NCBI RefSeq assembly: GCF_014279895.1
Contig: NZ_CP047954.1
Span: 682,001-746,000 of the forward strand
DNA length: 64,000 nt
Direction of reading: 5' to 3'
Source: Synechococcus sp. M16.1
GTDB taxonomy: Bacteria > Cyanobacteriota > Cyanobacteriia > PCC-6307 > Cyanobiaceae
Shown: positions 1,002 to 46,290 of the stretch, piece after piece
Numbering within the stretch: the first letter of the stretch is position 1
Layout: every line of letters starts with the position of its first letter
Program-made: the position numbers and the translations under genes
Notes under the pieces: model-generated
The model's input: only the letters and a program-made list of their open reading frames with translations
Databases searched by the model: none
Told to the model about the DNA's origin: nothing

Positions 1002-1352
1002 TTGGCGTTTCCGCGGCCGAAGCTGCTGCCCCGCATTGAAGAGCTGCTTCAGGAAGTGCAGTGGCTGGATGGCCTGATCCTGATCACCGACTCCGACCGC
1101 GCCTGTTTCGTCTCCTTCTCGCAGGTGGATCCACTGTTGCGTCGCCTGCGCCAGCGCCCCAAGGGCCCTGAGGTCGCTGAAAAGCTGTGCATGTCCTTGC
1201 TGGATTGCCATGGCAAGGGCGGTGCAAAGCCCGTCCTGGTTTTTCAGGGGGATGGCAGTTTCTGGCTCGGAATGATTGGTCCCAGCGGCAACAATCCGCA
1301 TCGCCATCACGCCATCGCGCACCTGCACCGTTGCCTGGCTTTGGAGGGCTGA
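1002..1352 (+). CDS. Small conserved cyanobacterial protein of unknown function
   Basis: A 116-aa soluble protein with no domain I can name. It begins AFPRPKLLPRIEELL and has no signal peptide or membrane segment. The start is decided by a strong ribosome binding site: AAGGGGAGG at 985-993 sits about 8 nt before a TTG codon at 1002, and no ATG fits. The central part is rich in hydrophobic strands (LDGLILITDSD, KPVLVFQGDGSFWLGMIG), suggesting a compact alpha/beta fold. It lies on the same strand as glyQ, 42 nt upstream of it. Function unknown. Confidence 0.75.
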   Translation: MAFPRPKLLPRIEELLQEVQWLDGLILITDSDRACFVSFSQVDPLLRRLRQRPKGPEVAEKLCMSLLDCHGKGGAKPVLVFQGDGSFWLGMIGPSGNNPHRHHAIAHLHRCLALEG

Positions 1353-1394
1353 CCGGCCACTGGGCAGAATCGGAACCCAGGACGCCCCGGCCCA

Positions 1395-2285
1395 GTGCAT
1401 TTTCAGGACATCATCAGCACGCTCAACCGGTTCTGGGCAGACCAGGGATGTCTGTTGCTGCAGCCCTACGACACCGAAAAGGGTGCCGGCACCATGAGCC
1501 CCCACACGGTGCTCCGGGCCATTGGCCCAGAGCCCTGGGCCGTGGCCTATCCCGAACCCTGCCGTCGCCCCACCGATGGCCGTTATGGCGACAACCCCAA
1601 CCGGGCCCAGCACTATTTCCAGTACCAGGTGCTGATCAAGCCATCCCCAGATGGCATCCAGGAGACCTACCTGGCGTCATTGGAGGAGTTGGGCATCAAG
1701 GCCGCTGACCACGACATCCGTTTCGTCGAAGACAACTGGGAGTCCCCAACCCTCGGCGCCTGGGGTGTGGGCTGGGAAGTGTGGCTCGACGGCATGGAGG
1801 TGACCCAGTTCACCTATTTCCAGCAATGCGGCGGCATCGATTGCAAGCCCGTTTCGATTGAGATCACCTACGGGCTCGAGCGGCTGGCGATGTATCTCCA
1901 AGACGTGGAAAGCATCTGGGACCTCAGCTGGAACAGCGAGCGCAGTTACGGCGAGATCTGGCTGCCGTTTGAAAAGGGGCAGTGCCACTTCAACTTTGAG
2001 GCCTCCAATCCCGAGCGGCTCAAGCAGTTGTTCGCCATCTATGAAGCGGAAGCGGCAGATCTGATCGAGAAGCAGCTGCCGGCACCGGCCTTGGATTTCG
2101 TTCTGAAGTGCAGCCACACCTTCAACCTGCTGGAGGCCCGTGGCGTGATTTCCGTGACGGAGCGCACCGCCACCATCGGTCGGATCCGCAACCTGGCCCG
2201 CAAGGTGGCCGAGGCCTGGCTGGCGGAACGGGAGGCCCTTGGTTTCCCGCTCTTGAAAGGGGGAACTCTCGAGACAGCGGCCTGA
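1395..2285 (+). CDS. glyQ: Glycyl-tRNA synthetase alpha subunit
   Basis: A 296-aa alpha subunit of the bacterial alpha2beta2 glycyl-tRNA synthetase, which holds the ATP, glycine and acceptor-end sites. Typical stretches are [14 protein letters not shown] near the start, [19 protein letters not shown], and the [27 protein letters not shown] region (given here as QQCGGIDC and [14 protein letters not shown]). Length matches the family. GTG 1395 is the start that gives the conserved [13 protein letters not shown] opening. The glyS beta subunit is not adjacent, as is common in cyanobacteria. The comEC reading frame begins right after the stop. Confidence 0.96.
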
Positions 2286-2345
2286 TGGTTTCTGCGTCGA
2301 CGTCGTTCTGCTGATGCCATTGCCCTCTGTCTCCTGGCGCTCCTT

Positions 2346-4234
2346 GTGCTTCGAGGGGTGTTGTGGGGAGCGCCACCGCCGAGCCGATCCGATCCATCTC
2401 GCCTGATCCAGACGCCACCGGCGGCCGTGGCGATCAGCGGGCGCTTGCTTGCCGATGTGCGCCGTTTTCCCTCGGGGTGTTCCGGTCTGTTGGAGGTGGA
2501 TCGGATCGATGCTCGTCGGGTCGACGGGCGAACCGAGCTGCAGTTGCCTGAGTGCCCTGCACCCCTGCTGCAGGGCTGGCGTGTCGAGGCCACGGGGGTG
2601 TTGAGGCGTCCGCTGCCAGCGGTACACCCACTGTTGCCGGGATCGGCAGAACGTCTAGCCCGCCAAGGCAGTTGGAGTCAGCTGCGGGCCGAGAGCATCG
2701 AAGTGCTGCAGCGTCCATGGACGCCGTTGGCTGATCTGCGGCGCGATGTTGCTCAACGGCTGCAACAGGCCGTGGGGCCGCGGCGGGGCGGTTTCCTGGC
2801 TGCTCTGGTGCTGGGCAGCGCCCTGGTGCAGCTCCCGGAAGACATCCGAGCGGCGTTCCGCATGGCCGGCTTGTCCCATGCCCTGGCGGCATCGGGTTTT
2901 CACCTCTCCGTACTGCTCGGCAGTGTGCTGATGCTGGCCCGCCGCTGGCCTCCTGGCCTGCGGCTTCCCCTGGCGGCCACGGCGCTGCTGCTGTTTCTCT
3001 GCCTTGCCGGAGCCCAGCCATCGGTGGTGCGGGCGGTGCTGATGGCTGCGATGGCCTTGCTGATTCGTGAGGCAGGTCATCACAGCCGTCCAGTCGGTGT
3101 GTTGTTGTTGACGCTCAGCGGCATGTTGCTGTTGCGCCCGGCCTGGGCCCTATCGATTGGTTTTCAACTCAGTGCGGCGGCCACCGCTGGGCTGATCCTG
3201 ACGGCTCCTCGTCTCGAGAAGGCTGTTCAAGCGTGGTTGCCGGATCGCTGCCAGGGCCTGGCAGCAGCGTTGTCCATCCCCGTGGCGGCCTTGCTCTGGA
3301 CGCTGCCGCTGCAGTTGCTCCATTTCGGTGCCATGCCGTTGTACGCGCTGGTTGCGAATCTGCTTGTTGCCCCGCTGCTGGCGCCGCTCACGCTGCTGGC
3401 CATGCTCTCGGCACTGTTGGTTCTCGTGGGGCCTACGGCTGTGCTGCCCCTGCTGCTGTGGCCTATTCATCAGTTGGCGGGCCTGGTGATCACCATGGCC
3501 AGCTGGATCAGCCACTGGCCTGGGTCACAACTGCTCACCGGACGTCCCCAGATGTGGGTGGTTGCCCTGCTGGTACTGGGCTTGCTGCCTTGGTTGCTGG
3601 GGGCAGGGCCCTGTCGCCGCTGCTGGGCTTGCTGCCTTGGTTGCTGGGGGCAGGGCCCTGTCGCCGCTGCTGGTCGTTGATCCCCCTGGTAACCGCCCTG
3701 CTCGTCCACGGCCTCGTGCAGTTGGGCGATGGTTTGTTGACGGTGGAGCGGTTTGATCGTCACTGGTTGCTTGGTCGCCATCGTGGGCGTGCCGCTCTGG
3801 TGAGCACCCATGGCGATGCGCGCAGTTGCCGGATGGCCAAGAAGCTCGCCGCTGTGCACGGCCACGCCCGTTTGGACTGGGTGCTGCTTTTGGATCCTGT
3901 GGCGACAGACGTGCTGGCCTGCTGGCAAGCGCTGACCCACCGCGTTGAGGCTCCCCAGCAAGGCCAAGCTCCCATCGCCATCGGCCAGGTGCTTCGGAGT
4001 GATGGCCTATCGGTGCAGCGCCTGCAGTCTCGCTCCGGAGCACTGGTGATGCGGGTGGGGCATCAGCGCTGGCAGCTGGTCCCAAGCCCTCAGGCCTTGT
4101 GGGCACTGCAGCAGCTGCAGCGATCAGAACCCCGGCAGCAGATCACCGGAACCTGGCTGGGGTTTAAGCCTTCCGCCCCCCAGCGCCGTTGGCTTCGGAA
4201 GAATGGAGCAGGTGCCCGGTTCGTCGGCCTTTAA
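2346..4234 (+). pseudogene. comEC: ComEC/Rec2 DNA-uptake channel, frameshifted by a 47-bp tandem duplication
   Basis: ComEC is the inner-membrane channel for DNA uptake in natural transformation. Frame 1 (2346-3680, 444 aa) carries the OB-like N-terminal part and the multi-span competence domain (for example GFLAALVLGSALVQLPED and MAGLSHALAASGFHLSVLLG). The rest, a beta-lactamase-like C-terminal part beginning SLIPLVTALLVHGLVQLGDG, is in another frame and ends at 4234. Between them a 47-bp unit occurs twice (3578-3624 and 3625-3671). Because 47 is not a multiple of three, it shifts frame; deleting one copy joins the two frames exactly. The start is also unsure: the frame is open back to the glyQ stop, and GTG 2346 falls inside the first apparent membrane segment. 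Confidence 0.85.
3578..3671 (+). repeat. Perfect 47-bp tandem duplication inside comEC
   Basis: Two identical 47-bp copies, 3578-3624 and 3625-3671, each starting GGGCTTGCTGCCTTGG and ending TCGCCGCTGCT. Counting flanking bases, identity runs over 51 bp (3576-3626 against 3623-3673). Perfect identity suggests a recent event, or an assembly artefact. Confidence 0.95.
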
Positions 4235-4259
4235 ACTGCGGGAACGCCTGAGGGCGTGT

Positions 4260-4346
4260 GGAGAGGTGGCAGAGTCCGGTTGATCGCGCACGACTCGAAA
4301 TCGTGTAGGGGTAACACCCTCGTGGGTTCGAATCCCACCCTCTCCG
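4260..4346 (+). tRNA. tRNA-Ser (CGA)
   Basis: A class II tRNA of 87 nt. The acceptor stem GGAGAGG (4260-4266) pairs with CCTCTCC (4339-4345), discriminator G at 4346. The anticodon loop is CTCGAAA with anticodon CGA (reads UCG). A long variable arm and the T arm GTGGGTTCGAATCCCAC are present. CCA is not encoded; a short T run follows. Confidence 0.95.
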
Positions 4347-4486
4347 TTTTTGTTGATCGTTGAATAGGTCGGACGTGGCGATTGCTTGATTAAGAGTTCA
4401 TGAATCAAGGTCTCTAGCGGCTTATTGCAAATGCTTGATCTTTGAACTTATTGATTGGGTTTTTAGAGGGTATTTCTGAGCTGTTT

Positions 4487-4780
4487 TTATGAATGAAATA
4501 GCAGAACAAGCCCCTGCTCCACTTGATGAAATTCTCGTTCCTCTCGGCTGAGGTCGAGCCCCACATTGAGCCCTTCTTTGAGTGCGTCCTCAAAGGGCGG
4601 TGTTGATGGCGGAGCGCTGTCAATCCAAAGTGCCGCTATCCCCACCGCTGTGGCATGCCAACGGAATCGGCTCGTTTTGCCGATGTCCGGTTCATTCAAC
4701 GCCTCCTCCAGGAGGATGTTGATGGTGATGTTCGTGCTGGACATGTGCACCAGCATCGTGATCTTGGCCTGCTCCTGCAA
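4487..4780 (-). CDS. Small hypothetical protein in an AT-richer gap
   Basis: An open frame of 97 codons opposite to the neighbouring glycosyltransferase. The product looks protein-like: a short hydrophobic start (SSTNITINILLEEALN), then mixed polar sequence ending HQVEQGLVLLFHS. Later starts at M9 or M13 are possible. I recognise no family. The 475-bp stretch between tRNA-Ser and the glycosyltransferase has no other candidate gene; the part at 4347-4486 is clearly AT-richer than the surroundings and shows nothing I can name. A competing frame on the plus strand (4566-4871) overlaps the glycosyltransferase start and looks less like a protein. Confidence 0.4.
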   Translation of the reverse strand: MQEQAKITMLVHMSSTNITINILLEEALNEPDIGKTSRFRWHATAVGIAALWIDSAPPSTPPFEDALKEGLNVGLDLSREEREFHQVEQGLVLLFHS

Positions 4781-4821
4781 TGAGCTGAGAGACTTCGTAG
4801 TGTTCGCTTCACTCCAGAGGG

Positions 4822-6051
4822 ATGGCCTCGGCTTCGGATCACCTCCCGCAGCGCATCGCTCTGGTTCATGAGTGGTTCTCGCCTCGTTCTGTCGGTGGAG
4901 CAGAACAGGTTGTTCAAGAGGTTGATTCCCTTCTGCGCAGCCTCGGCTGCGAGCCGCAGATGGCGGCCCTGATCGACGCCGAATCTCGACGGCCGGGCAG
5001 TTGGTTGCACGGACGCTCCATCCTCACCAGCCCGATTCAGCGCCTGCCGTGGGGGCGCAGCCATGTGCAGCAGTACCTGCCGCTGCTGCCCTTTGCGATC
5101 GAACAGATCGATCTTGGTGCTGCAGAGCTGGTGATCAGCAGCAGCCACCTGGTTGCCAAGGGTCTGCTGACGTCTCCGGACCAGCTGCACATCAGTTATG
5201 TGCACACACCCGTGCGTTACGCCTGGGACCAGATGCACGCTTATATGCAGCGTTCGGCGCTGGCTCGGCGTGGTCTGGGCCCTTTGATTCGCTGGCAGTT
5301 GCATGCTCTGCGGCAATGGGACCAACTCAGTGCTCAGCGGGTGGACCACCTCATTGCCAACTCCCGTTTCACGGCGCGTCGAATTCGCAAGTACTGGGGG
5401 CGGGAGGCCCGCGTGATCCATCCCCCCGTGGAGGTGGAGCGCTTTCGCTGGAATGCCGATCGAGACGACGTCTACCTCTGTCTGTGTCGTTTGGTCCCCT
5501 ACAAGCGGGTGGATCTTGTGGTGGAAGCCTTCAATCGCCTGGGCCTACCCCTGCTTGTGGTGGGGGATGGTCCGGAGAAGGCGCGATTGGAGGCTCTGGC
5601 TGGTCCCACGGTCACCTTGCTCGGCCGTCAGTCCCAGCAGCAGGTGGAAGCGCTCATGGCCCGTTGTCGGGCATTTGTCTACGCCGGCCTAGAGGACTTC
5701 GGCATTGCTCCGGTGGAAGCAATGGCGTCCGGAGCTCCGGTGATTGGGTTGGGGCGGGGTGGTTTGTTGGACACGGTGCGTTGTGCGGCTGCAGGGATTC
5801 CTGAGCCCACTGGGGTGCTGTTCCCTGAACAAAGTGTCGAGTCGTTGGTGCAGGCCGTGGAGTGGTTTGAACAAGAATGCATTTGGCGTTCTCTGGATGC
5901 AGAAGCCATTCGTGCGTGGGCCGAGCGCTTCAGGCCGGAAGCCTTCGCTGCGCGCTTTGAATCGGCTCTGCGAACAGCTTGGAGTGCTCATCAGCGGGGC
6001 TGTGCCGTTGCAGCGAGTGACCCTGCGGAGATGCCTGTGCTGCACCTGTGA
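4822..6051 (+). CDS. Glycosyltransferase, GT4 family (group 1)
   Basis: A 409-aa retaining glycosyltransferase of the GT-B fold. The N-terminal half begins RIALVHEWFSPRSVGGAEQV, the usual acceptor-domain opening. The C-terminal half has RLVPYKRVDLVVEAF, LLVVGDGPEKARLE and the donor-binding EX7E region around EDFGIAPVEAMASGAPVIG. There are no membrane segments. Its stop overlaps a GTG of the following sugar-transferase locus, so the two probably act together in making surface polysaccharide or another glycan. The sugar and acceptor cannot be told from sequence. ATG 4822 is the only good start. Confidence 0.88.
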   Translation: MASASDHLPQRIALVHEWFSPRSVGGAEQVVQEVDSLLRSLGCEPQMAALIDAESRRPGSWLHGRSILTSPIQRLPWGRSHVQQYLPLLPFAIEQIDLGAAELVISSSHLVAKGLLTSPDQLHISYVHTPVRYAWDQMHAYMQRSALARRGLGPLIRWQLHALRQWDQLSAQRVDHLIANSRFTARRIRKYWGREARVIHPPVEVERFRWNADRDDVYLCLCRLVPYKRVDLVVEAFNRLGLPLLVVGDGPEKARLEALAGPTVTLLGRQSQQQVEALMARCRAFVYAGLEDFGIAPVEAMASGAPVIGLGRGGLLDTVRCAAAGIPEPTGVLFPEQSVESLVQAVEWFEQECIWRSLDAEAIRAWAERFRPEAFAARFESALRTAWSAHQRGCAVAASDPAEMPVLHL

Positions 6052-6082
6052 CGTTGAGTGTGGTGAGTCCCAAGTTGAGCCT

Positions 6083-6841
6083 TTGACCTCGGCCTCCCGG
6101 CCATCCTTGATTCAGTCCGCAGGGCGTGCAGCTCGCCGTGGCAAGTACAAGCCTCACCTTGCGCTGATCTCAGCCCCGCCATCGGATCTTTCGACCGGCA
6201 CTCTTATCCGCCATCAGAACCGTTGGGGCAGAGTCTTTAAGCGCAGCGGAGACATTGTTTTTTCTCTCGCCGTACTCAGCATCGGTTCTCCGTTGTTGCT
6301 GCTTCTGGCGGGATTGGTGAAGCTCAGTTCACCGGGGCCTGTGTTTTACGTACAGCGTCGGGTGGGCCGGAACTACCAGCGTTTTGGCTGTATCAAGTTC
6401 CGCACCATGCGGGCCGATGCGGATGCCGTTCTTGCGCGTGTTCTGGAGGCAGATTCCTCGCTGCGTGCTGAGTTCGAGCGTGACTTCAAATTGAAACGTG
6501 ATCCCCGAATCACTCCCCTGGGCCGTTTCCTGCGCCGCTCGAGTCTTGATGAGCTACCACAGTTCTTGAATGTTCTTCGTGGCGAAATGAGCGTGGTCGG
6601 TCCACGCCCAATCGTCGAGAAAGAACTCGTTCGTTATGGCCCTTACATGGATGAAGTTGCCTCAGTCCGCCCTGGGTTGACCGGCCTTTGGCAAGTGAGT
6701 GGCAGAAATAACTTGAGTTACAAGAAACGGGTCAAGCTTGATCTGGCCTATGCCCGTGGTCGTTCGTTCGGCCTGGACTTTGCCATCATCCTGCGCACAT
6801 TTGGTGTGTTGATCCTGCCGATGGATCGCGGTGCTTACTGA
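6083..6841 (+). CDS. Polyprenyl-phosphate sugar-1-phosphate transferase (bacterial sugar transferase family)
   Basis: About 252 aa of the family that loads the first sugar phosphate onto the lipid carrier for exopolysaccharide or O-antigen-like glycans (WbaP/RfbP C-terminal domain). It has one hydrophobic segment (VFSLAVLSIGSPLLLLLAGLV), then KFRTMR, RRSSLDELPQFLNVLRGEMS, VGPRP and RPGLTGLWQVSGRN, the family's hallmark motifs. The start is unclear. GTG 6048 overlaps the upstream stop but its frame ends at TGA 6084; the coding frame has only TTG 6083 or a later TTG, and no ATG until mid-gene. A small frameshift near the 5' end is possible. It probably functions with the GT4 enzyme just upstream. 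Confidence 0.85.
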   Translation: MTSASRPSLIQSAGRAARRGKYKPHLALISAPPSDLSTGTLIRHQNRWGRVFKRSGDIVFSLAVLSIGSPLLLLLAGLVKLSSPGPVFYVQRRVGRNYQRFGCIKFRTMRADADAVLARVLEADSSLRAEFERDFKLKRDPRITPLGRFLRRSSLDELPQFLNVLRGEMSVVGPRPIVEKELVRYGPYMDEVASVRPGLTGLWQVSGRNNLSYKKRVKLDLAYARGRSFGLDFAIILRTFGVLILPMDRGAY

Positions 6842-6848
6842 CTTGTGC

Positions 6849-7868
6849 TCAGCGGCTTATCGCCCATTGGATGATCCCAAGACCACTGAGCCAGACGATC
6901 TCCAGTCGGCTTGATGCCTTTAGAACCTCTCTAACCAGAGGCCCGTTTGCCGTTGGTTGGCCGGCCCCAAGCACAGGTTTCTGCACCAAGCGCTCTCCAT
7001 ACTTGTTCTCGCCGCCAAGTTGGATTCCGATGCAGTGGGCGTAGATCGCTTCTGCACGACCTGCATTGGGGGATGGATCCGCAGAGCCATCCCGCTCTGC
7101 CGCCTGCACCCGTTGCGCCCATTGTGTCCAGGGTGGGCAGACCAGGGGCAGCGTAAGCATGACCAGACGGCAGGGCAGCCAGGTGAGCAGATCATCGAGG
7201 CGAGCGCCGGCTGTCCCCAACCAGCGCAGCCGGCCGCTGCGGTAACCGAGCATGGAATCCAGCGTGCTGCTGGCCTTGAAGACCCAGGCCAGCGCCAGCG
7301 GACCAGGGCCAGAGGGCAGGACCATCCACAGCAGGGAACCGATCCCCATCCAGAACAGTGGTGCGAACACGCCATCCACAGCATTTTCTGAGGCTGTTTC
7401 AGCTGCGGCCCTGAGCAGTCCCGTGCGATCCAGACTCTGAACGTCGCGTCCAACGATCCAGCTCAAGTTCCGGCGGGCTGGCTCGAGATCCCCCTCCGTT
7501 GCTGAGGGCAGTGCATCCACCACGGCGAGCACACTGTCCTTGAGGCTGCGAGCCGCCAGGGCGCTGGCGAGGCTCAGGGTCAGTACCGGAATGCTGAGCC
7601 ATCCCCATGGGGAGGGAAGCCACAGCAGCCGCTCCAGACACCAGCCCGTCAAAACGCTGCCAAGCACAAGGATCAGGCTGATCAAGCCTCCCCCGATCCG
7701 CAGCTTGATCGGATGGTCCCCCGCCCATCGCTCGACCCAATGGCGCAACTGCTGAATGCTCCACCCCATCACCACCACGGGGTGGAGCCACCGGCGCGGG
7801 TCACCGATCAGCCGATCAAGCACGGCTGCCCCGATCACCAGCAGGCCTCCCAGCGCTTCTGAACTCAT
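6849..7868 (-). CDS. cobD: Adenosylcobinamide-phosphate synthase (CobD/CbiB)
   Basis: A 339-aa integral membrane enzyme that attaches aminopropanol phosphate to adenosylcobyric acid late in cobalamin synthesis. Family features include LDRLIGDPRRWLHPVVVMG near the start, the RRNLSWIVGRD motif, AAAETASENAVDGVFAPLFW and the late GGENKYGERL motif. Four or more hydrophobic spans are visible. I start at ATG 7868 (SSEALGGLLVIGA) rather than a frame extension to 7895, because the extension runs into the terminator of ilvC. cbiET elsewhere in the window belongs to the same pathway. Confidence 0.93.
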   Translation of the reverse strand: MSSEALGGLLVIGAAVLDRLIGDPRRWLHPVVVMGWSIQQLRHWVERWAGDHPIKLRIGGGLISLILVLGSVLTGWCLERLLWLPSPWGWLSIPVLTLSLASALAARSLKDSVLAVVDALPSATEGDLEPARRNLSWIVGRDVQSLDRTGLLRAAAETASENAVDGVFAPLFWMGIGSLLWMVLPSGPGPLALAWVFKASSTLDSMLGYRSGRLRWLGTAGARLDDLLTWLPCRLVMLTLPLVCPPWTQWAQRVQAAERDGSADPSPNAGRAEAIYAHCIGIQLGGENKYGERLVQKPVLGAGQPTANGPLVREVLKASSRLEIVWLSGLGIIQWAISR

Positions 7869-7893
7869 GGGAGGGGCGTGGCCAGAAACCAAC

Positions 7894-7933
7894 AAAAATC
7901 CCCGCTCTGCACCGTTAGGGCAACAGAGCGGGG
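7894..7933 (-). terminator. Rho-independent terminator after ilvC
   Basis: On the minus strand CCCCGCTCTG and CAGAGCGGGG form a 10-bp perfect stem (7924-7933 with 7900-7909) round a 14-nt loop, followed by ATTTTTG. It lies about 55 nt past the ilvC stop and before cobD. Confidence 0.85.
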
Positions 7934-7987
7934 GGTGAGCTGAGGGATGGTGTCTGATGCCACCGGCTGTTCAGCGCTTGCGCAGGA

Positions 7988-9019
<1,032 letters not shown>

Positions 9020-9045
9020 TTACGCAGCGGCCTGCCCCGTTCGGT

Positions 9046-9648
9046 TCAGGCCTCGTTCGGATGGGAGATGACGCGGTCGATCAGGCCGTATTCCTTGGCT
9101 TCTTCGGCGCTGAGGAAGTAGTCCCGGTCGGTGTCCTTCTCGATCTTCTCGAAGCTCTGGCCACTCATGTCGGCCAGGGAGCGGTTGAGCATCTCCTTCA
9201 TCCGCAGGATCTCCCGTGCTTCGATCTCGATGTCACTGGCCTGGCGACGGCTGGTGCCTCCGAGGGGCTGGTGAATCATGATCCGGCTGTGGGGCAGGGC
9301 GACCCGCTTGCCTTTGGTGCCAGCCGCGAGAAGGAAGGCACCCATGGATGCAGCAAGGCCAACGCAGATGGTCACCACCTCGCTCTTGACATATTGGATG
9401 GTGTCGTAAATCGCCAGTCCAGCCGTGACGGAGCCGCCGGGGGAGTTGATGTAGAGGTAGATCGGCTTGCTGCTGTCTTCCGAGTCCAGATAGAGCATCT
9501 GGGCCACCAGGCTGTTGGCGATGCCGTCATTGACCTCAGAGCCAAGGAAGAGGATCCTCTCCACCCCGAGACGGGTGTAGATGTCGACCCAGCGCTCCAT
9601 CTGGCTGCCGGGCAGGCGGTAGGGAACGCTGGGGGTACCGATCGGCAT
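9046..9648 (-). CDS. clpP: ATP-dependent Clp protease proteolytic subunit (ClpP3-like)
   Basis: A 200-aa ClpP with a complete catalytic triad: Ser101 in GLAASMGAF, His126 in [11 protein letters not shown] and Asp176 in TDRDYFLS. The N-terminus [13 protein letters not shown] resembles cyanobacterial ClpP3. It is 53 nt downstream of clpR on the same strand. In Synechococcus elongatus ClpP3 and ClpR form a mixed essential core with ClpC, so the same complex is likely here. The ClpP3 assignment rests on the clpR neighbour and the N-terminus; the protease call itself is certain. Confidence 0.95.
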
Positions 9649-9701
9649 GGTTCAGAACGTTGATGAAGGAAGGGCAGGAGGGTTGGGTCTGATGCCGTCG
9701 G

Positions 9702-10379
9702 TCAGACGGGGGGATTGCCAGGCAGGTCCTTGCGGCTGCTGAGCACGCGGTCGATCAGTCCGTACTCAACGGCTTGTTGAGGAGTGAGGTAGCTCATCCG
9801 GTCGGAGTCCTTGCTCAGCTCCTCTACAGAACGACCTGTGTTGGTGGAGAGGATCTCGAGCATTGCCTGCTTGTTGTGCAGCACTTCTTTGGCCCGGATC
9901 TGGATGTCCGTCGCCTGGCCGCGGGCGCCGCTGCGGGGCTGGTGCAGAACGATGGAGGAGTGAGGCAACGCGGCCCGTTGACCTTTGGTCCCTGCCGAAA
10001 GAATCACTGCCGCCGTGCCCATGGCCTGGCCGATGCAGATGGTGTGCACCGGAGGCTTCACATAGCGGAGGGTGTCGCAGATGGCGAAGGCTTCGGTCTC
10101 GAATCCGATCGCATCACCCGAGTACCAGCTGGTGCCAGTGGAGTTGATATAGAAGTAAATCGGCTTCTCTGGGTTGTCGAACTCCAGATAAAGCAGCTGA
10201 GCAATGATCAGCTCAGTCACATCGATGCCCATCTGACGCTTGGCGTCGTCGTCAGAGAACAGGGGCAAGCCCAGGTAAACGATTCGCTCCTTGAGCAGGA
10301 GTGAGGGAAGGTCTGGAGGTGGTGTGCGCATCACGGCGCTGTCGCCGTAGTACGGGGCCGAAGTTGTCATCTCCACCAT
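9702..10379 (-). CDS. clpR: Inactive Clp protease subunit ClpR
   Basis: A 225-aa ClpP paralogue lacking the nucleophile. In the ClpP alignment GLAASMG becomes GQAMGTA, so the active-site Ser position is Gly121, while His146 (SSIVLHQP) is kept. It also has the ClpR-type insertion SWYSGDAIGFETEAF before the first catalytic region. Such subunits are structural members of the cyanobacterial ClpP3/R ring. It is followed by clpP on the same strand, as expected. Start ATG 10379. Confidence 0.94.
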   Translation of the reverse strand: MVEMTTSAPYYGDSAVMRTPPPDLPSLLLKERIVYLGLPLFSDDDAKRQMGIDVTELIIAQLLYLEFDNPEKPIYFYINSTGTSWYSGDAIGFETEAFAICDTLRYVKPPVHTICIGQAMGTAAVILSAGTKGQRAALPHSSIVLHQPRSGARGQATDIQIRAKEVLHNKQAMLEILSTNTGRSVEELSKDSDRMSYLTPQQAVEYGLIDRVLSSRKDLPGNPPV

Positions 10380-10394
10380 CGCGGTGGGGCGAGC

Positions 10395-11552
10395 CTAGCC
10401 GGGGTCAGCGGGCTTGCGGTTGCTGGTTTTGGCCGGTTTTCCCTGACTTTTCGATTTGGATGAGGGCTTGGTGTCGGTTGATGCATCGTTCTCGTCCAAC
10501 CGTGCAAACACCATGCGCCCGGTTGGGGTTTGCAGGGCACCGGTCACCACCACAGGTTTGCGTTGGCCGATCAGCGATTTCGCCTCGTTGACCACCACCA
10601 TCGTTCCGTCATCGAGGTAGCCGACACCCTGGCTGTCCTCCTTGCCCTCTCGCACGATCTTGAGTTTGAGCTCATCGCCGGGTTGCACTTCAGGCCGCAA
10701 CGCGATCACCAGCTCACTCAGATTCATCACCTTCAGGTCTTTGACCTGGGCCACCTGCGCCAGGTTGAAGTCTGCGGTCACCAGCGTGCCGCCGGTGTCA
10801 GATGCCAACTGCAGCAATCGGTCGTCCGTTCCCTTGCCGTCGTAACGGGTGCTGTTGATCACCAACCGCCGCCCGTAGGTTTCCCGCAGATCCTTCAGAA
10901 GCTTCAGGCCACGTCGGCCCTTGGCCCGCTTTTCGATGTTGGTGGAATCCGACAGCTGCTGCATCTCATCGATCACCGATTCGGCAACGATCACCTGCCC
11001 TTCCAGCAATCCGCAGGCGAGCATGCCGCGGATCCGGCCATCGATGATCACGCTGGTGTCCAGGATCTTGGCCGTGGCGGGGGTCAGCACCCCATCAGCC
11101 ACCAGCAGCGCCTCCGTGCTCGCGGGATTGAACAGGCGCAGCAGCGTGCGGCCGTGAACTTCCGCCAGGTTGCTTCCGAGAATGCCAAAAAAGACATTGC
11201 TCACCACCGCCAGAAGGGGTTTGAGCAGAACAATTCCTCCGGAGAACGGAAGCAGCAGAACAGGCAGCAGCAGCAGGTTGGCCACCAGCAACCCCAGGAT
11301 CAGGCCGACAGCCCGGCTCACCAGCAGATCGGTGGGCATGGTGCGCACCTGTTGCATCAGGCGCACCCGCAGCTTTTTGAACACCAGGCCTGCGATCAAG
11401 CCAATGCCACCGCCAGCTCCGCTGAGCTGGAGACGCAACTGTTCAGCATTGGTGGTTGCACTCACCAGGCCGTCGGGCAGCAAGTGAATCCCCATCCACC
11501 CGGCAGCTGCACCGGAAACCACAAACAGAAGCAGGATGAGCGGATCCACCAT
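10395..11552 (-). CDS. Membrane PIN-TRAM domain protein (YacL-like)
   Basis: A 385-aa protein. The N-terminal third has several hydrophobic spans (ILLLFVVSGAAAGW, LILGLLVANLLLLPVLLLPF). A PIN nuclease domain follows, beginning AKILDTSVIIDGRI and with the acidic residues D of LDTS, E of AESVIDE, D of TDDRLL and D of TADFNL. A TRAM domain (LKLKIVREGKEDSQGVGYLDDG) ends near residue 350, then a Ser/Lys-rich tail. This is the architecture of Bacillus YacL. The RNA target is unknown. I start at ATG 11552; the frame is open 67 codons further but that extension runs into hemW. The clpR start follows 16 nt past its stop. Confidence 0.88.
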   Translation of the reverse strand: MVDPLILLLFVVSGAAAGWMGIHLLPDGLVSATTNAEQLRLQLSGAGGGIGLIAGLVFKKLRVRLMQQVRTMPTDLLVSRAVGLILGLLVANLLLLPVLLLPFSGGIVLLKPLLAVVSNVFFGILGSNLAEVHGRTLLRLFNPASTEALLVADGVLTPATAKILDTSVIIDGRIRGMLACGLLEGQVIVAESVIDEMQQLSDSTNIEKRAKGRRGLKLLKDLRETYGRRLVINSTRYDGKGTDDRLLQLASDTGGTLVTADFNLAQVAQVKDLKVMNLSELVIALRPEVQPGDELKLKIVREGKEDSQGVGYLDDGTMVVVNEAKSLIGQRKPVVVTGALQTPTGRMVFARLDENDASTDTKPSSKSKSQGKPAKTSNRKPADPG

Positions 11553-11591
11553 GGGTTCAGGTCGTGGCAGCTCGATCCGGATGCCAGAAGC

Positions 11592-12797
11592 ATGCCTTAT
11601 CCCATCCCGCCCCGCAGCGCCTACCTCCACATTCCCTTCTGCCACCGGCGCTGTTACTACTGCGATTTCGCCGTGGTTCCCCTGGGGGACCAGGCTCGAG
11701 CCGACAACGGGCCTGGCAGTCGCTCGATCCGTGAGTACCTCAGCCTGCTGCATCGGGAAATCGCCTCTGCCCCAGGGGGTCCTCCCTTATCCACCGTGTA
11801 CATCGGCGGGGGAACGCCATCGCTGTTGTGCCCCGATCAGATCGGAGCACTGATCGATGCCTTGGCCAACAAATTCGGTCTTCAACCGGGTGCGGAAATC
11901 ACCCTGGAGATGGATCCGGCCACCTTTGATGCCGCGCAGTTGGCCTCCGTTCTGGCCCATGGCGTGAACCGCATCAGCCTGGGGGGGCAGAGCTTTGATG
12001 ATGCGGTGCTCGAGCAGCTGGGGCGTCGGCATCGCCAGAGCGACCTCCATGCGGCGATCGACTGGCTGGTTCAGGCCTGGCGCGATGGCGCGCTTCGGTC
12101 CTGGAGTCTCGATCTCATCCAGAACCTCCCGGGCCAGACCCTGGCCGGGTGGGATGCGCAGTTGGATCAGGCCATTGCCAGTCAGGCTCCCCATCTCTCG
12201 ATTTACGACCTCTCGGTGGAGCCGGGCACGGTGTTTGATCGCCAACGAACGCTTGGCCTGTTGCAGCTGCCGGAGGACGACCTGGCCGTTGCCTTGATGG
12301 AGCGGACCACACAACGGCTGTCGGCTGCTGGACTCAGCCGCTACGAGATTTCCAACCACGCCCGTCCGGGCCATGCCTCCCGTCACAACCGGGTGTACTG
12401 GAGCGGTGCCGGCTGGTGGGGTTTTGGCATGGGAGCGACATCAGCACCCTGGGGGGTGCGTTTGGCGCGACCCCGCACCCGCGCCGCCTACGCGGAATGG
12501 CTGGATCATCCTCCTGAGGAATCAGTCGCCGAGGCTGGGCTCCCTCTGGATGATCAATTGCTGGTGGGTCTGCGGCGCCGGGAAGGGGTGACCCTTCAAG
12601 GTCTTGATGCCGATGCCCTAGTGCGCCGCTGGCAACCTTTCGTTGAGCGTGGATGGCTGCAGCAACGGGCAGGCCGTTGGTGCCTCACCGACCCCGAGGG
12701 CATGGCCCTCAGCAATCAGGTGCTGATTGAGGTGATTCTGTGGTGGGAAGAGTGTTGTTCCGGGTCTGCTGGACCCAACCCTTCAACGCGTCGATGA
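11592..12797 (+). CDS. hemW: Radical SAM protein HemW (HemN-like heme chaperone)
   Basis: A 401-aa radical SAM enzyme. The cluster-binding motif CHRRCYYC gives Cys17, Cys21 and Cys24, followed by [18 protein letters not shown] and [11 protein letters not shown]. HemW proteins lack the extra N-terminal region of true HemN and act as heme chaperones; annotation as coproporphyrinogen III oxidase is a common over-call. ATG 11592 lies 40 nt from the divergent PIN-TRAM gene. The 3' end overlaps panB by 89 bp on the opposite strand; the last recognisable family part is [13 protein letters not shown]. Confidence 0.9.
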
Positions 12798-13524
12798 ACA
12801 GGCGGCGGCCATCCACCAGCGCTGGGCTGAAGGGAGGTTGTTTGGCGGTGAGCCCCAGCAGGTCTGCGGTGACGCGCACCTGGCCGTCGCAGCTGTCACC
12901 TGCCCCGATGCCGATCACCGGGATGGTCAGGGCCTGCTGCACCCGGCGCGCCAGCTCGGCAGGAACATGTTCCAGCACCAGGGAGAAGCAGCCCTTCTGC
13001 TCGAGGGTGTGCGCCTGATCAACCAGGCGTTCCTGGCTGATGGCGTCCGTGGCCTGGCGCCTGTACCCCAGGCGATGCACGGCCTGCGGGGTGAGGCCCA
13101 GATGCCCCATCACGGGAATGCCCATGCGCACAAGACGGTCGATTACGGCGACAACCTCGGGTTCCGCCCCCTCCAATTTCACCGCCGCTGCGCTGGACTC
13201 CTTCAACAAACGCCCTGCAGCCGCCACGGCGCGGTCTTCGCCGCACTGGTAGCTGAGAAAGGGCAGGTCACAGACCAGCAGGGGCTGATCGGCCGGCATG
13301 GCCGTCAATCCCCGGGCGACTGCCTGGGTGTGATGGAGCATCTGGTCCAGGCTCACCGGGAGTGTTGTGGCATGGCCCAGCGCCACCATCGCCAGTGAAT
13401 CACCGATCAGCAGCACGTCTGCACCGGCGGCCTCGGCCAGAGCTGCAGAGAGGCTGTCCCAAGCGGTGAGCACGGCGATGGGTTGGCCCTTCTGCTTGAA
13501 GCGGGTCAGATCAGAAGGACGCAT
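12709..13524 (-). CDS. panB: 3-Methyl-2-oxobutanoate hydroxymethyltransferase
   Basis: A 271-aa enzyme that adds a hydroxymethyl group from methylene-THF to ketoisovalerate, the first committed step of pantothenate synthesis. Family stretches are [58 protein letters not shown] and [15 protein letters not shown]. Asp of GDSL is a metal ligand. The ~20-residue C-terminal tail is not conserved and overlaps the end of hemW on the other strand. It starts about 40 nt from the SRP RNA gene. Confidence 0.95.
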
Positions 13525-13566
13525 GCAGCTTCAGAACCCCTCGGGGGCTCATTGCTAGCATTCGGC

Positions 13567-13663
13567 CGATTCGGGCCCATGCGGCTCTGACGCCCAAATC
13601 TGGTCAGGACCGGAAGGGAGCAGCCACACGGGATGCTCAGGGCAGGCGTGGGTTCCGGGTCAC
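13567..13663 (+). ncRNA. ffs: Signal recognition particle RNA (small bacterial type)
   Basis: The conserved apical loop region GGTCAGGACCGGAAGGGAGC (13601-13620) is diagnostic of SRP domain IV. The flanks pair: TTCGGGCCCATGC at the 5' side with GCGTGGGTTCCGGG at the 3' side, allowing G-U pairs. About 97 nt; the ends are estimated from the pairing. The protein partner Ffh is at 41804. Confidence 0.9.
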
Positions 13664-13677
13664 CACAATCAATTGAG

Positions 13678-13701
13678 CTGTCAGACCGTGGGGTCTGACA
13701 G
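13678..13701. terminator. Hairpin between SRP RNA and ftsZ
   Basis: CTGTCAGACC and GGTCTGACAG form a perfect 10-bp stem with loop GTGG. It sits 5 nt past the ftsZ stop and 15 nt after the SRP RNA, so it may end both transcripts. There is no strong T run on either side. Confidence 0.55.
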
Positions 13702-13706
13702 CAATC

Positions 13707-14816
13707 TCACAAGCTTCCGTTGTCCTGTTGCTGACGGCGACGCAGGAACTCAGGAATGCGGGCGCCGTTCTCTTCGGGTTCCCCACGATTCAGCATTCCG
13801 GGCACGGAGCGGCTGCGCTCGCTGCGGTACGGCTGCTTGTTCTCGAAGCCTGTAGCGATCACCGTCACGTGGATCTCCCCTTCGAGGGCCTCATCCACCA
13901 CAGCGCCCACGATGATGTTGGCTTCGGGATCGACAACGTCGTAAATCACCTCGGAAGCAGTGGTCATGTCCTCCAGGGTCATGTCTTTACCACCGCTGAT
14001 GTTGATCACACAGCCCTTGGCGCCATCGATGCGCTCGGTTTCCAGCAGCGGGCTTGCAATCGCGGCTTGGGCTGCTTCCACGGCTCTTGAGCGACCGGAA
14101 CCGATGCCGATGCCCAGCAGTGCTGTGCCTGCTTCGGTCATCACGGAGCGAACGTCAGCAAAGTCAACGTTCACCAGGCCCGGGCAGGTGATGATGTCGC
14201 TGATGCCTTTGACGCCCATGCGCAGGACGTCGTCCGCACTCCGGAAGGCTTCCTGAAGGGGAGCTCCGCCGATGGCATCACGCAGGCGGTCGTTGGGGAT
14301 CACGATCAGGGTGTCCACGTGTTCCGCCAACCGAGCGATGCCTTCGTCGGCCTGACGCATGCGACGACGGCCCTCGAAGCTGAACGGCTTGGTCACGATG
14401 CCCACCGTGAGAGCACCGACTTCACGGGCGACTTCGGCCACCACTGGTGCTGCACCAGTTCCCGTTCCACCGCCCATGCCAGCGGCAATGAACACCAGAT
14501 CGGAGCCCTGCAGTGCATCGTGCAGATCCGTGCGGGATTCTTCGGCTGCCTTCTGGCCGATGGTGGGGTTGCCGCCGGCACCCAGTCCGCGGGTCAGGGT
14601 CTGCCCCAACTGCAGCCGTTGCTGGGCCTGCGACTGGATCAGGGCCTGGGCATCGGTGTTCAGAACGCGGTATCCAACCCCCTCAAGATCGCTGAGGATC
14701 ATGCGGTTGACGGCATTGCTCCCGCCACCCCCAACGCCGATGACCTCGATGCGGGCGGACTGGCTGGGCTGGATACCAGCTGCCGTGAAAGACCCTGAGC
14801 CGCTCACCATCTCCAT
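13707..14816 (-). CDS. ftsZ: Cell division GTPase FtsZ
   Basis: A 369-aa tubulin-like protein that forms the division ring. It has [13 protein letters not shown] near the N-terminus, the tubulin signature [11 protein letters not shown], and the T7-loop segment [11 protein letters not shown]. The conserved C-terminal peptide is IPEFLRRR, which binds partners such as SepF or ZipN; zipN/ftn2 is also in this window. Length and domain order are normal. It lies downstream of ftsQ with a 117-nt gap that may hold its own promoter. Confidence 0.97.
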
Positions 14817-14933
14817 CGTCGAGGCAGAACCGTGTGGTTGCGTTGCATTATGTCCCTGAAGCCTTGTCTCGGCTTCAACAGATCACAAACCAGGAGCTGA
14901 GGTTGTGGTCTCCAGATTTTCCACCCGAAGGTT

Positions 14934-15779
14934 TCAGGGTTCAGTTTTGGGCTGCTTGGGGGCGGGTGGCGCCGGCAGTTGCAGTTCCGGGCGGTCCGGA
15001 TTGCTGAGATCAAGGCTGCTGTGATGGGCCCCGCGCAGGTGCTTTGGCAACGTCCGGTTCAGATGGAGGATCGTTTCGATCTGGGTGTTTAAGAGGGCCG
15101 GTTCGCCACCGAGATCAATCCGGCCAAGCTCGGTGGTGATCAGACTGATGTTGCCGTCGGGATCAAGCACGATGGCTTTCAGCATCCCGGCGAAGCGATT
15201 CCGTTCTTGCAGCAGCGCAGCGACCTGACCGCGTTGCGGGCCATTCCAGCCGCGCACCATGATCTCCGTGAGCGGATCTGCTACGGCGTCGCTCAGGGGA
15301 ATCCATTCACCTGCGGCGTTGAGCAGACCCCGTTCCCGTCCAGCGGGTCCCCGACGCTCAGCGCGTGCGATGGGAATCTCCGGCTTCAGGCTGATGACGA
15401 GGCGAGCGGGGAACATCCGGCGCTGCACGTGAGCGCTGTGAACCGGTAAGACCCCGACCAGCTGTTGTTCCAGCTCCCTCGGACTGACCTCCAGCAGGGG
15501 TGAGGGAAAGCGCAGCTTGCCCGCCTCGATCACCTGATTGGTCTCAAGGGCAGCACCGCCGGTCAGGATGACAGCCTCAGGGCTCCGCAGCGTCCAGCCA
15601 TGGCGCAGCAAGATCCAGCTGAATCCGCCACTGAGCAGCAGCAAGGCCACAAAGCGCCAGAGCTGCAGCAACAGGGTCTGGCGGCGCTGCCGGCGTAAGT
15701 CCCGCCGCCGGGCAACCTGCGCGGAAACCGGCCGTTGGGAGGATTTGTTGTTGGTCGAGACCCGGCTCACAGGTCGCAT
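14934..15779 (-). CDS. ftsQ: Cell division protein FtsQ (POTRA domain)
   Basis: A 281-aa bitopic membrane protein. A basic cytoplasmic N-terminus rich in Arg (RRRDLRRQRRQ) precedes one membrane span (FVALLLLSGGFSWILL, about residues 44-59), then a POTRA-type segment (AVILTGGAALETNQVIEAG ... FPARLVISLKPEIPIARAERR) and a C-terminal FtsQ domain. The tail is Pro-rich. Position just upstream of ftsZ and near ddl matches the division cluster. It overlaps the preceding small membrane protein gene by 13 nt. Confidence 0.9.
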   Translation of the reverse strand: MRPVSRVSTNNKSSQRPVSAQVARRRDLRRQRRQTLLLQLWRFVALLLLSGGFSWILLRHGWTLRSPEAVILTGGAALETNQVIEAGKLRFPSPLLEVSPRELEQQLVGVLPVHSAHVQRRMFPARLVISLKPEIPIARAERRGPAGRERGLLNAAGEWIPLSDAVADPLTEIMVRGWNGPQRGQVAALLQERNRFAGMLKAIVLDPDGNISLITTELGRIDLGGEPALLNTQIETILHLNRTLPKHLRGAHHSSLDLSNPDRPELQLPAPPAPKQPKTEP

Positions 15780-16177
15780 CGGGCCCGTGCCATCAGCTGC
15801 TCACCCCAGCTGCGCGCGCGGTCGGCATCAGAGAAGGGCACATCCATCTGCAGATCTTTCCCGATGAGGCGCAGCCGACAACGCCCCTGGGATTCGTCGG
15901 TGAGGGGCGCATCACCGGACGCCAGCGACATCAGCTCCACAAGCTCGAGTTTGCAGACGTCAAACGAGCCCTGATCCTGAAAACTTCCCGCCTCGAAGCT
16001 GCTCCAGTGCAGTTCACCGTCTTTCAGACGGGCACCACCACAACCATCGAGCTTGGCGAGTTCGGAGCCTTCGGCCCAGGTGCAAAACAGGTTTTGGCGC
16101 CGCCGTTCCAGCCATCCGAGCGATGCCAGCAGCACAAAGGCCAGCAGCAGAGGAAACCAGAGCAGTCCGTGGCTCAT
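15767..16177 (-). CDS. Small membrane-anchored protein between ddl and ftsQ
   Basis: A 136-aa protein with one N-terminal membrane segment (LLWFPLLLAFVLLASLGWL) and a soluble domain with four or so cysteines (for example NLFCTWAEG, KLDGCGGARL, FDVCKLEL, QGRCRLRL). I recognise no family. It overlaps ftsQ by 13 nt and follows ddl by 23 nt on the same strand, so co-transcription with the division and wall genes is likely. A role in that process is only an inference from position. Confidence 0.75.
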   Translation of the reverse strand: MSHGLLWFPLLLAFVLLASLGWLERRRQNLFCTWAEGSELAKLDGCGGARLKDGELHWSSFEAGSFQDQGSFDVCKLELVELMSLASGDAPLTDESQGRCRLRLIGKDLQMDVPFSDADRARSWGEQLMARARCDL

Positions 16178-16200
16178 GGGTTAGGCGAAGGACGCTGCGT

Positions 16201-17253
16201 TCATTCTCCTGCGGTTTGGATCAGTTTGTGCACCAACTGTTCGAGTGTTACGCCGCTGGCCGCCCAGAGCATCGGGAACATGCTCTGGGCCGTGAAACCA
16301 GGCAGGGTGTTGATTTCGTTGATCCAGAGCTGATCGTTGGCGTCGTCGTAGAAGAAATCCACCCGACCCATGCCGTTGACGCCCACGGCAGCGCAGGCCT
16401 GTAGGGCCTGGGCGCGGATGCGGTCAGCCACTTCATCCGTCAGAGGAGCAGGAATCAACGTGGTGCTGCGCCCTGCGGTGTATTTCGTCTCGTAGTCGTA
16501 CCAGTCCGCATCAAAACGAACTTCACCGATCACCGACGCTTCGAGCATGTGTCCCCCCAGGACGGCGCATTCCACCTCTCGGGCGTTGACGCCCTGCTCC
16601 ACCACCAGCCTTGGATCGAGCGCTGCAGCCTGATTGAGGCCTGCTTCCAGTTCTTGGCGGGAACGCACCTTGCTGATGCCCACCGAGGAGCCGAGATTGG
16701 CGGGCTTCACAAAGCAGGGGTAGTTCAGTTCGCGTTCAATCCGATCCATGAGGGCCGATCGGCTGATCGCGTTCTCGAGTTCGGATGCGTGCAGGGCCAC
16801 ATAGGGCACCTGGGACAGCCCGGCGCTGGCGAAAGCAGATTTCATCGCCTGCTTGTCCATGCTGACGGCTGAGCAGAGCACGCCGGCACCAACGAACGGT
16901 TTGCCGGTCAGCTGGAACAACCCCTGAATGGTGCCGTCCTCTCCATTGGGACCATGCAGCACCGGGTACCAGAGTTCGACCGCATCACATCCCTCCGGAA
17001 ACCCCTGGAATCCTGATGGGGGCAGAGGTGGGTTGAGCTCCGGTGCGGTTTCGGAGGCCAGGGTTGCTTCGGACAGATCTGTTCCCCACCAGCGACCAGC
17101 ACGGTCGATGTAGATCGGCTGCACCGTGTATCGCTCTCGGTTCTCCCCGCTGCGCAGGCCTCGGACGACGGTCGCCGCAGATCGGATCGACACGTCGTGC
17201 TCTCCAGAGCGGCCTCCAAAGACGAGCCCGACCGTGATGGGACTGGACGGCAT
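16201..17253 (-). CDS. ddl: D-alanine--D-alanine ligase
   Basis: A 350-aa ATP-grasp ligase that makes the D-Ala-D-Ala end of the peptidoglycan stem. It opens [20 protein letters not shown], and has [30 protein letters not shown] and the Mg-binding end [11 protein letters not shown]. Length is normal. The neighbours ftsQ and ftsZ make this part of a division and cell wall block. Confidence 0.96.
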
Positions 17254-17304
17254 GAATGCGGCGACCCCTGAGCGGTGGGAGCGCCAAAGGTATCAGCGTT
17301 GTGC

Positions 17305-18699
17305 TCAGTGGGGCAGGGGGCTGCCGCTGAGTGAAAAGGAGCGCACCGCATCGATGCGCACCGGCACGAGATCGCCCGCTTCGTAGGCACGACCATCCGC
17401 TCCGGTGGAGCTGAAGAAGGTCAGGCGATTGGTGCGGGTTCGCCCCATCAGCTGCGATGGGTCCTTGGGGTTGATGCCCTCCGCCAGCACTTCTTCCGTG
17501 CGCCCCTCGTAGCGGGCATTGGCCTTGCGGGCGCAGCGTTCCACCAGGGCATTGATTTCGCGCAGGCGTTCCACCTTCACCTCCTCCGGCAGCTGGTTGT
17601 CCCAATGGGCTGCAGGGGTATTGGGCCGGGGTGAATAGGCCGCTGTGTTCACCTGATCGAAACCGATCTCTTCGATCAGATCGAGGGTGCGGCGGTACTG
17701 CGCATCGGTTTCGCCAGGGAAGGCAACGATCACATCGGCACTGAGTGAGGCATCGGGCATGCGCTCACGGATGCGGTCGATGATCCGCCGGTAGCGCTCA
17801 ACGGTGTAGCCCCGGGCCATGGCCTGCAACACGTCGTTGTCCCCGCTCTGAAACGGAATGTGGAAGTGTTCGCAGAGCTTGGGCAGGTCGGCACAGGCAT
17901 CGATCAGCCGCTCGGTGAAGTAGCGCGGATGGCTGGTGGCAAAACGGATCCGTTCAATGCCCTCCACGTCGTGGACGTGATGGAGCAGATCCGTGAGGGT
18001 GTGTTGGCGGCGACCCTCCGGCGTGATGCCCGGCAGATCGCGGCCGTAGGCATCAATGTTCTGGCCGAGCAGAGTGATCTCCTTGTAGCCCTGGGCGGCA
18101 AGACCCTCCATTTCCAGCTTGATCGCCTGGGGCAGCCGTGATTGTTCCTTGCCGCGCACGGAGGGCACCACGCAGTAGGTGCAACGTTCGTTGCAGCCGT
18201 AGATCACATTCACCCAGCCACAGATGCTGCTGTCCCGGCGGGCCGTGGTGATGTCTTCAAGGATGTGGTGGTCTTCGGTGGCGACCACCTGCTGACCGCT
18301 GTCCACCTGCAGCAGAAGGGTTTCAAGCCGATTGGCGTGTTGCGGTCCCATCACCAGATCCAGCTCCGGCACCCGCCGGAGCAGGGACTCGCCCTCCTGC
18401 TGAGCAACGCAGCCCGCCACCACCAGGGTGAGATTGGGGTTGCTGCGTTTCCTCTGGGCCTGTCTGCCGAGGTAGCTGTAAACCTTCTGCTCGGCGTTGT
18501 CCCGGATGGTGCAGGTGTTGTAGAGCACCAGATCGGCATCCAGTTCGGCTGACGCCTCCCGATAGCCCATGGCCTCCAGGATTCCCGCCATCCGTTCGGA
18601 GTCCGCCTTGTTCATCTGGCAGCCGAACGTGGTGATCCAGTAGCTGCCGCGCTGGGGGTTGGCGGTGGCGTCAGTGGCGAGGGGGGCGGAGGCGACCAA
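17305..18699 (-). CDS. miaB: tRNA-2-methylthio-N6-isopentenyladenosine synthase MiaB
   Basis: A 464-aa radical SAM methylthiotransferase acting at A37 of tRNAs that read U-starting codons. The N-terminal UPF0004 domain holds Cys in [25 protein letters not shown] and [10 protein letters not shown]; the radical SAM motif is [17 protein letters not shown]; a TRAM domain ends the protein. All cluster ligands are present. It is the most upstream gene of the minus-strand group that leads to ddl, ftsQ and ftsZ. Confidence 0.96.
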
Positions 18700-45675: not shown

Positions 45676-45710
45676 CTCAGCCCTCAGCCCTCAGCCCTCA
45701 GCCCTCAGCC
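45676..45710. repeat. Five perfect tandem copies of a 7-bp unit
   Basis: CTCAGCC repeated five times without error. It abuts the terminator and runs over the last codons and stop of the minus-strand gene at 45698. Confidence 0.95.
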
Positions 45711-46219
45711 ACGGCATAGACGCTGTCTCCGATGGCTTGTTTCTGCTCGGCGTCGTACCCCCACTTCTCCAGGAAGGCGACGTCTTCACCGCGGTTGTCG
45801 AGTGCTGCGGCCAGCAGTTGCTCCAGGCGCTCTTTCACCTCCGCTGGTTCAAGCAGTCTGAGCAGTTCAATGCAACGGCTGCTGACCCGCTCCGAGCCGG
45901 CCTGCTGGGCCTCATCTCCCGTGCGCCGGTGATGCACAGCCATGGCGGTGCTCATGGCCAGATTGCGGACGCTCAGATCCACAACGCCAGCCCCGGCGCC
46001 CCGCAGTTGCCCCACGACGGCATCGGGCAAACGATCCATCAGCACGCTCTCGCCCGCCAGGCTCACCACGAAAAATCCCCGGGCACCATCGCGGCTGGCC
46101 ACCATTTCACCGATGCGGTCGGCCAGCACCTCATCGCTGATCTCCTCGTTGTCCCACTGCTGCAGCCAAGCCGCTGTGATCTCCATGGCCTGCTGGAAGG
46201 TGGGCTGCTGATCCGCCAT
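45698..46219 (-). CDS. Conserved cyanobacterial protein of unknown function
   Basis: A 173-aa soluble, acidic and mostly helical protein. It opens ADQQPTFQQAMEITAAWLQQ, has a central strand-rich part (RGFFVVSLAGESVLMDRLPD), then a helical end rich in Glu, Leu and Arg (ELLRLLEPAEVKERLEQLL). I recognise no family. ATG 46219 is preferred; an ATG at 46261 in frame would add 14 residues. The stop codon lies within the 7-bp repeat array, so a change in repeat number could alter the C-terminus. Divergent from era. Confidence 0.75.
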   Translation of the reverse strand: MADQQPTFQQAMEITAAWLQQWDNEEISDEVLADRIGEMVASRDGARGFFVVSLAGESVLMDRLPDAVVGQLRGAGAGVVDLSVRNLAMSTAMAVHHRRTGDEAQQAGSERVSSRCIELLRLLEPAEVKERLEQLLAAALDNRGEDVAFLEKWGYDAEQKQAIGDSVYAVAEG

Positions 46220-46251
46220 GGACCTTTTCAATTCCTGCCCTAAGGCTATGG

Positions 46252-46290
46252 GTCGATTCAACGGGCCGATCCAACGGGTCGATCCAATGG
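46252..46290. repeat. Three imperfect 13-bp tandem repeats upstream of era
   Basis: GTCGATTCAACGG, GCCGATCCAACGG and GTCGATCCAATGG lie end to end at 46252-46290, in the divergent gap 18 nt before the era ATG. Confidence 0.85.

Follow-up and report, generated by a model that had tools for sequence, protein, structure and literature searches.

The comEC gene of Synechococcus sp. M16.1 is split by a perfect 47-bp tandem duplication, and several genes of the type IV pilus are destroyed in the same genome. We consider it probable (roughly 0.83) that the split arose by slipped-strand duplication and became fixed while the type IV pilus/competence pathway was decaying. On this reading, a tandem duplication between short repeats, specific to the M16.1 lineage, would have hit comEC and put it out of frame between the channel and the C-terminal metallo-beta-lactamase (MBL)-like domain. 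The frameshift would have been tolerated and fixed because the whole apparatus for the type IV pilus and competence was being lost in the lineage. The tempting story of phase variation would thus give way to that of an abundant marine genus whose DNA uptake is decaying, with the M16.1 lesion as one step.

The tandem duplication and the two halves of comEC

The window, i.e. the whole stretch of 64,000 nucleotides that we analysed, contains the following features at the comEC locus:

1395..2285, + strand: glyQ (glycyl-tRNA synthetase alpha chain), as we take it to be from its protein sequence; upstream neighbour of comEC
2286..3680, + strand: comEC N-terminal frame with DUF4131 and the Competence channel domain (PF13567 and PF03772 by Pfam)
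3578..3624, + strand: copy 1 of the 47-bp duplication, absent from the 33 other genomes covering the site
3625..3671, + strand: copy 2 of the 47-bp duplication; the run at offset 47 spans 3576-3673
3674..4234, + strand: comEC C-terminal frame with the MBL-like domain, from alignment to a relative and a structure match
4259..4347, + strand: tRNA-Ser(CGA), found by ARAGORN; downstream neighbour of comEC

Of 20 genus loci, 19 had the same upstream neighbour, and the remaining one (G033) is cut by a contig end. The tRNA-Ser(CGA) gene also lay downstream in 19 of the 20 according to ARAGORN, which found none in the G018 stretch.

The two 47-bp units are letter-identical and lie head-to-tail inside comEC. 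At an offset of 47 the match extends to a run of 51 bases, with CTGG common to both outer ends; about 6×10−23 runs of such length are expected at this offset per 64 kb, given independent bases of the same composition. The perfect duplication reported in the initial annotation was thus confirmed, and so was the +2 frame shift ascribed to it (47 is 2 mod 3). The N-terminal frame (first listed start: GTG at 2346) ends at a premature stop at 3680. Aligned to an intact 633-aa relative (G002, L058), it shows 90.6% identity over residues 1-448; the C-terminal frame, which ends at TAA 4232-4234, shows 84% over residues 440-633. In the alignment to this relative, no further break was found between the two halves; apart from the duplication they are collinear with it. 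The gene is therefore not one uninterrupted reading frame, as the duplication breaks it. The last stop in the C-terminal frame lies at 3068, and the open reading frame listed from 3233 opens with ~340 bases that are outside the gene's own frame. These findings support a loss-of-function duplication in comEC. The N-terminal frame scored 170.5 bits for Competence (PF03772) and 40.8 bits for DUF4131, both above the curated cut-offs; in ComEC channels an N-terminal DUF4131 is a common companion of Competence. A truncated protein with the whole Competence domain may retain a residual role.

Pfam reported nothing in the C-terminal part; Lactamase_B was also missing from the intact relative G002. A structure model of the C-terminal part, built from seven sequences (mean pLDDT 84), gave as its top VIA match 9ic4, the beta-lactamase-like domain of Moorella ComEC (Z 9.3, rmsd 3.8, 167 residues), although many other MBL proteins scored within 1 Z of it. 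The best Foldseek matches of the model were proteins of the MBL superfamily (E 3×10−4), and 9ic4 was not among the 50 matches listed. The severed part is thus predicted to be an MBL-like domain, as found in many, though not all, ComEC proteins. The metal-binding motif of the MBL domain is HxHxDH; neither any of the seven aligned C-terminal parts nor the intact relative of 633 aa has it.

Slipped-strand mispairing leaves exact head-to-tail copies, flanked by short homology of a few bases, that shift the reading frame. No known difference sets the window duplication apart from such products. The homology between the repeats would be 4 bp as the sequence stands, or 6 bp if the base beside the first copy changed later. 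We scanned 464 kb of the M16.1 genome (the window and 20 evenly spaced 20-kb stretches) and found no second tandem copy with a unit of 20-299 whose exact run reached 0.9 unit or more, a threshold that older, diverged duplications would escape. Imperfect repeats do occur in the window. Within 222 kb of pilus and comEC loci of relatives, there were two near-exact tandem copies, with units of 21 and 51, both multiples of three.

Two further repeats were observed elsewhere in the window. A 7-base unit (CTCAGCC on the + strand) occurs in five perfect copies at 45676-45710, and this run crosses the stop codon of a minus-strand 187-aa open reading frame (45698-46261). At 43103-43219, an imperfect 45-bp repeat codes for the Met/Gly-rich tail of a 498-aa protein, which presumably resembles SRP54/Ffh.

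Derived state of the duplication and relics of the pilus genes

We examined the comEC locus in 46 other genomes, 25 of the genus and 21 of the family, the latter picked largely for a short- or broken-looking comEC. The duplicated site was covered (residues 425-455 of comEC) in 33 of them. A scan for near-exact tandem runs detected the 47-bp copy in none of the 33, and the duplication is therefore derived. The nearest relative at the locus is the metagenome-assembled genome G033 (91.2% over 5.2 kb). Its comEC has a single copy of the 47-bp unit and is uninterrupted over residues 158-633, the contig ending at 158, and its pilB, pilT, second pilT and pilQ are all open. The similarity of G033 to the window is higher over 3251-4250 than it is over 2751-2950. 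A recombinant origin of the C-terminal half was considered and dropped: the locus is a mosaic, but no breakpoint was seen at the duplication site.

NG86 estimates of dN/dS for the N-terminal part were 0.14-0.21 in pairs with M16.1 (G000) and 0.16-0.23 among six other genomes. For the C-terminal part they were 0.22-0.35 in pairs with M16.1 and 0.17-0.35 among other genomes. No relaxation was visible in either part, in a pairwise measure that is insensitive to short recent relaxation and gives no date for the break. Together with the identity of the two copies, this is consistent with a recent break, and the break of comEC is probably recent.

Of the type IV pilus genes looked for in M16.1, relics alone are left, with none of pilB, pilT and pilQ open. 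PF00437 gave no match above cut-off in the genome. The pilB-pilT-pilC locus is reduced to ~0.6 kb (G000:C1 ~20317-20959) holding residues 1-55 of pilB and 231-396 of pilC, and no pilT match was found between these remnants. Residues 1-60 are left of the second pilT (~546409-546588). The secretin match of the genome sits in a 231-aa frame with a TAG: it is a C-terminal fragment of pilQ (reference residues 439-687; 1944195-1944854), with no further pilQ in the 4.6 kb upstream. DprA, on the other hand, is open (363 aa, E 8.3×10−58). For ComEA (PF12836) there was one match, below cut-off, across 34 genus genomes; either the model misses these ComEA proteins or none is present.

In Synechococcus elongatus, natural transformation is described, in the portion of the source available to us, as requiring nearly all pilus genes as well as ComEA, ComEC, ComF and DprA (PMC7125226). 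Because of this dependence on the pilus genes, M16.1 should take up no DNA even with one copy of the repeat. The recent loss of DNA uptake put forward in the initial annotation therefore stands in part: a loss-of-function duplication is supported and its recency is consistent with our data, but the duplication as sole cause is too narrow an account because pilB, pilT, pilC, the second pilT and pilQ are destroyed as well.

As a separate observation, the second pilT of M16.1 has lost ~1 kb relative to G002 (L141 ~1910; G000:C1 ~546409), and the ends of the deleted segment in G002 have six common bases at the junction. The genome thus shows deletion as well as duplication at short repeats.

Other comEC lesions and alternative readings

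Looking within comEC itself, we found a second perfect tandem duplication in another species, G020. Its unit is 86 bp (86 is 2 mod 3) in a 90-bp run with ACTG at both ends (L054 2712-2887, residues ~449-477). It lies just downstream of the 47-bp site, with neither unit nor site in common. The second pilT of G020 has two in-frame stops and no pilQ match was found, whereas pilB, pilT and pilC are open. Two independent frame-shifting duplications in a single gene are noteworthy, though each lies in a genome with further decayed genes of the pathway. We do not claim a duplication hotspot, as the probability of two events being adjacent by chance is not small in a gene of 633 codons. Tandem runs in L050 (unit 156; outside the comEC match), L052 (unit 30; inserted DNA between the two comEC pieces of G018) and L103 and L111 (containing 97 and 195 N) were not counted as comEC duplications.

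Four breaks fall at residues ~412-477, namely those of M16.1 (duplication at 431-447), G020, G024 (a gap with frameshift at 412-454) and G006 (entry of a serine-integrase element at ~412-422). In seven other interrupted genus genomes the breaks or gaps lie elsewhere, some of them inside the channel. The insertion in G006 (~13.9 kb, L048 ~1247-15120; G006:C1) carries a large serine integrase, a Prim-Pol primase, a second resolvase and a terminase large subunit among the eight proteins scanned, and looks like a phage satellite with comEC as its attachment gene. A scan of viral_contigs with this integrase found no relative. In G150, from another genus, comEC has a likewise satellite-like insertion of ~15.8 kb at residue ~209 (L146 ~2630-18404; G150:C1), in which the four proteins scanned include a large serine integrase, Prim-Pol/VapE and also a terminase. 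The two insertion sites differ, and the integrases are 26% identical over 286 residues. In the comEC of G018, the inserted DNA measures ~3.3 kb, and its integrase match stays under the Pfam cut-off.

Transformation genes, comEC among them, have been lost through interruption in other bacteria as well. The parts of the literature that we draw on report an interrupted comM in Acinetobacter baumannii (PMC11472951), insertion of prophage Phi1207.3 with serine recombinases into comEC of Streptococcus pyogenes (PMC4260502) and interruption of Piscirickettsia salmonis comEC by transposable elements (PMC12955456). In contrast to these three, the lesion in the window consists of a short tandem duplication and involves no mobile element; interruption of comEC by mobile elements was found in the related genomes G006 and G150. 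A limited literature search returned no report of the 47-bp comEC lesion; one paper it listed (PMC2737636) contains comEC, frameshift and tandem duplication together.

Perfect tandem copies are inherently unstable, and the initial annotation had accordingly proposed a reversible on/off switch, in which some cells would regain the comEC frame through recombination between the copies or through slippage. The different, likewise frame-shifting duplication in the same gene of G020 would also fit a switch. However, a contingency gene is expected to have the rest of its pathway intact, and in M16.1 pilB and both pilT genes are gone and pilQ is no longer intact. Loss of one copy would leave these genes missing, so that the switch reading fails on this point. 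The pilus genes of G020 are impaired too, despite the three that are open, the two duplications differ in unit and site, and there are two copies only in each genome. Related species, moreover, break comEC in other ways, which indicates ordinary gene decay. We therefore regard the switch as highly improbable. An assembly artefact is unlikely. If contig ends overlapping by 51 bases had been joined without merging, the result would be a perfect duplication with a short overlap. Yet the genome is a single contig of 2,112,236 bases (99.99% complete), no other exact tandem copy turned up in the 464 kb scanned, other pathway genes of the same genome carry real lesions, and the repeat ends have the short microhomology that slippage predicts.

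The least probable reading, with hardly any credence from us, is a functional split gene whose channel half and MBL-like half are made separately and work together or apart. The Competence domain is indeed complete in the N-terminal part, the breaks of M16.1, G020, G024 and G006 all fall at residues ~412-477, and competent bacteria with a ComEC lacking the Lactamase_B domain exist according to part of one source (PMC6299819). Against this, no pilus machinery is left to feed the channel, the listed C-terminal reading frame opens with bases that are out of the gene's frame, and the seven other interrupted genomes break elsewhere. It is also very unlikely that the channel/MBL-like junction is a preferred breaking point in marine Synechococcus, where detachment of the MBL-like domain would be selected as an initial, and conceivably reversible, move towards ending DNA uptake. 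Slippage followed by fixation in a decaying pathway remains our preferred reading. The repeated and varied breaks in one slot offer a natural experiment on when open-ocean cyanobacteria abandon DNA uptake.

comEC and pilus genes across the genus

The N-terminal part of comEC was matched in 27 of 34 genus genomes, including that of the window, and in seven there was no match. The gene was uninterrupted in 11 (G001, G002, G003, G005, G007, G021, G022, G023, G030, G032 and, up to its contig end, G033), cut by contig ends in four (G009, G017, G025, G026) and interrupted or internally deleted in another 11 (G000, G004, G006, G008, G014, G018, G019, G020, G024, G027, G028). A weak match in G015 was left out of this count. 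In a family sample of 300 genomes, PF03772 was matched in 168, and in 133 of the 196 of good quality.

Nineteen genus genomes were of good quality (at least 90% complete, at most 5% contaminated), with comEC open in 10, interrupted in eight (M16.1 included) and absent from one (G029). All of pilB, pilT, second pilT and pilQ were open in nine of the 19, and comEC was open in seven of these nine, the exceptions being G006 and G008. At least one of the four pilus genes was broken or missing in the other 10, three of which (G001, G002, G023) had an open comEC. The association between comEC and the pilus genes was not significant at 0.05 (Fisher p=0.07, in a post hoc test that treats related genomes as independent). 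The five exceptions indicate that comEC and the pilus genes have no fixed order of decay. The trend in the genus fits decay of the whole pathway, with either side going first.

We had considered a third T2SSE ATPase as a competence-specific marker and rejected it; we take it as the second pilT, and G006 and G008 have it open despite a broken comEC. Two pilT genes are named in WH7803, according to the section of PMC7994388 concerned.

Marine picocyanobacteria are described, in the portions of two surveys available to us, as differing between strains in the pilus, ComEA and ComEC, the apparatus being absent or partly lost in marine strains without pilA (Aguilo-Ferretjans et al. 2021, PMC7994388; Life 2020 review, PMC7690421). 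These portions do not mention comEC pseudogenes. The marine survey scored ComEC by BLASTp match (PMC7994388, in the part available), a procedure that would presumably count fragments as well. In M16.1, by comparison, the gene is there in interrupted form, and the lesion responsible has been identified. Because comEC is present but interrupted in eight of the 19 good genus genomes, our results suggest that competence in marine Synechococcus could be overcounted where surveys score comEC by BLAST presence.

The three genomes with the reverse pattern are G023 (L061, L143), G002 (L058, L081) and G001 (L044, L144). In each, an uninterrupted comEC stands beside a pilB that is broken or all but lost, and pilQ was not found; either the loss of the pilus was very recent or ComEC has another role in these genomes.
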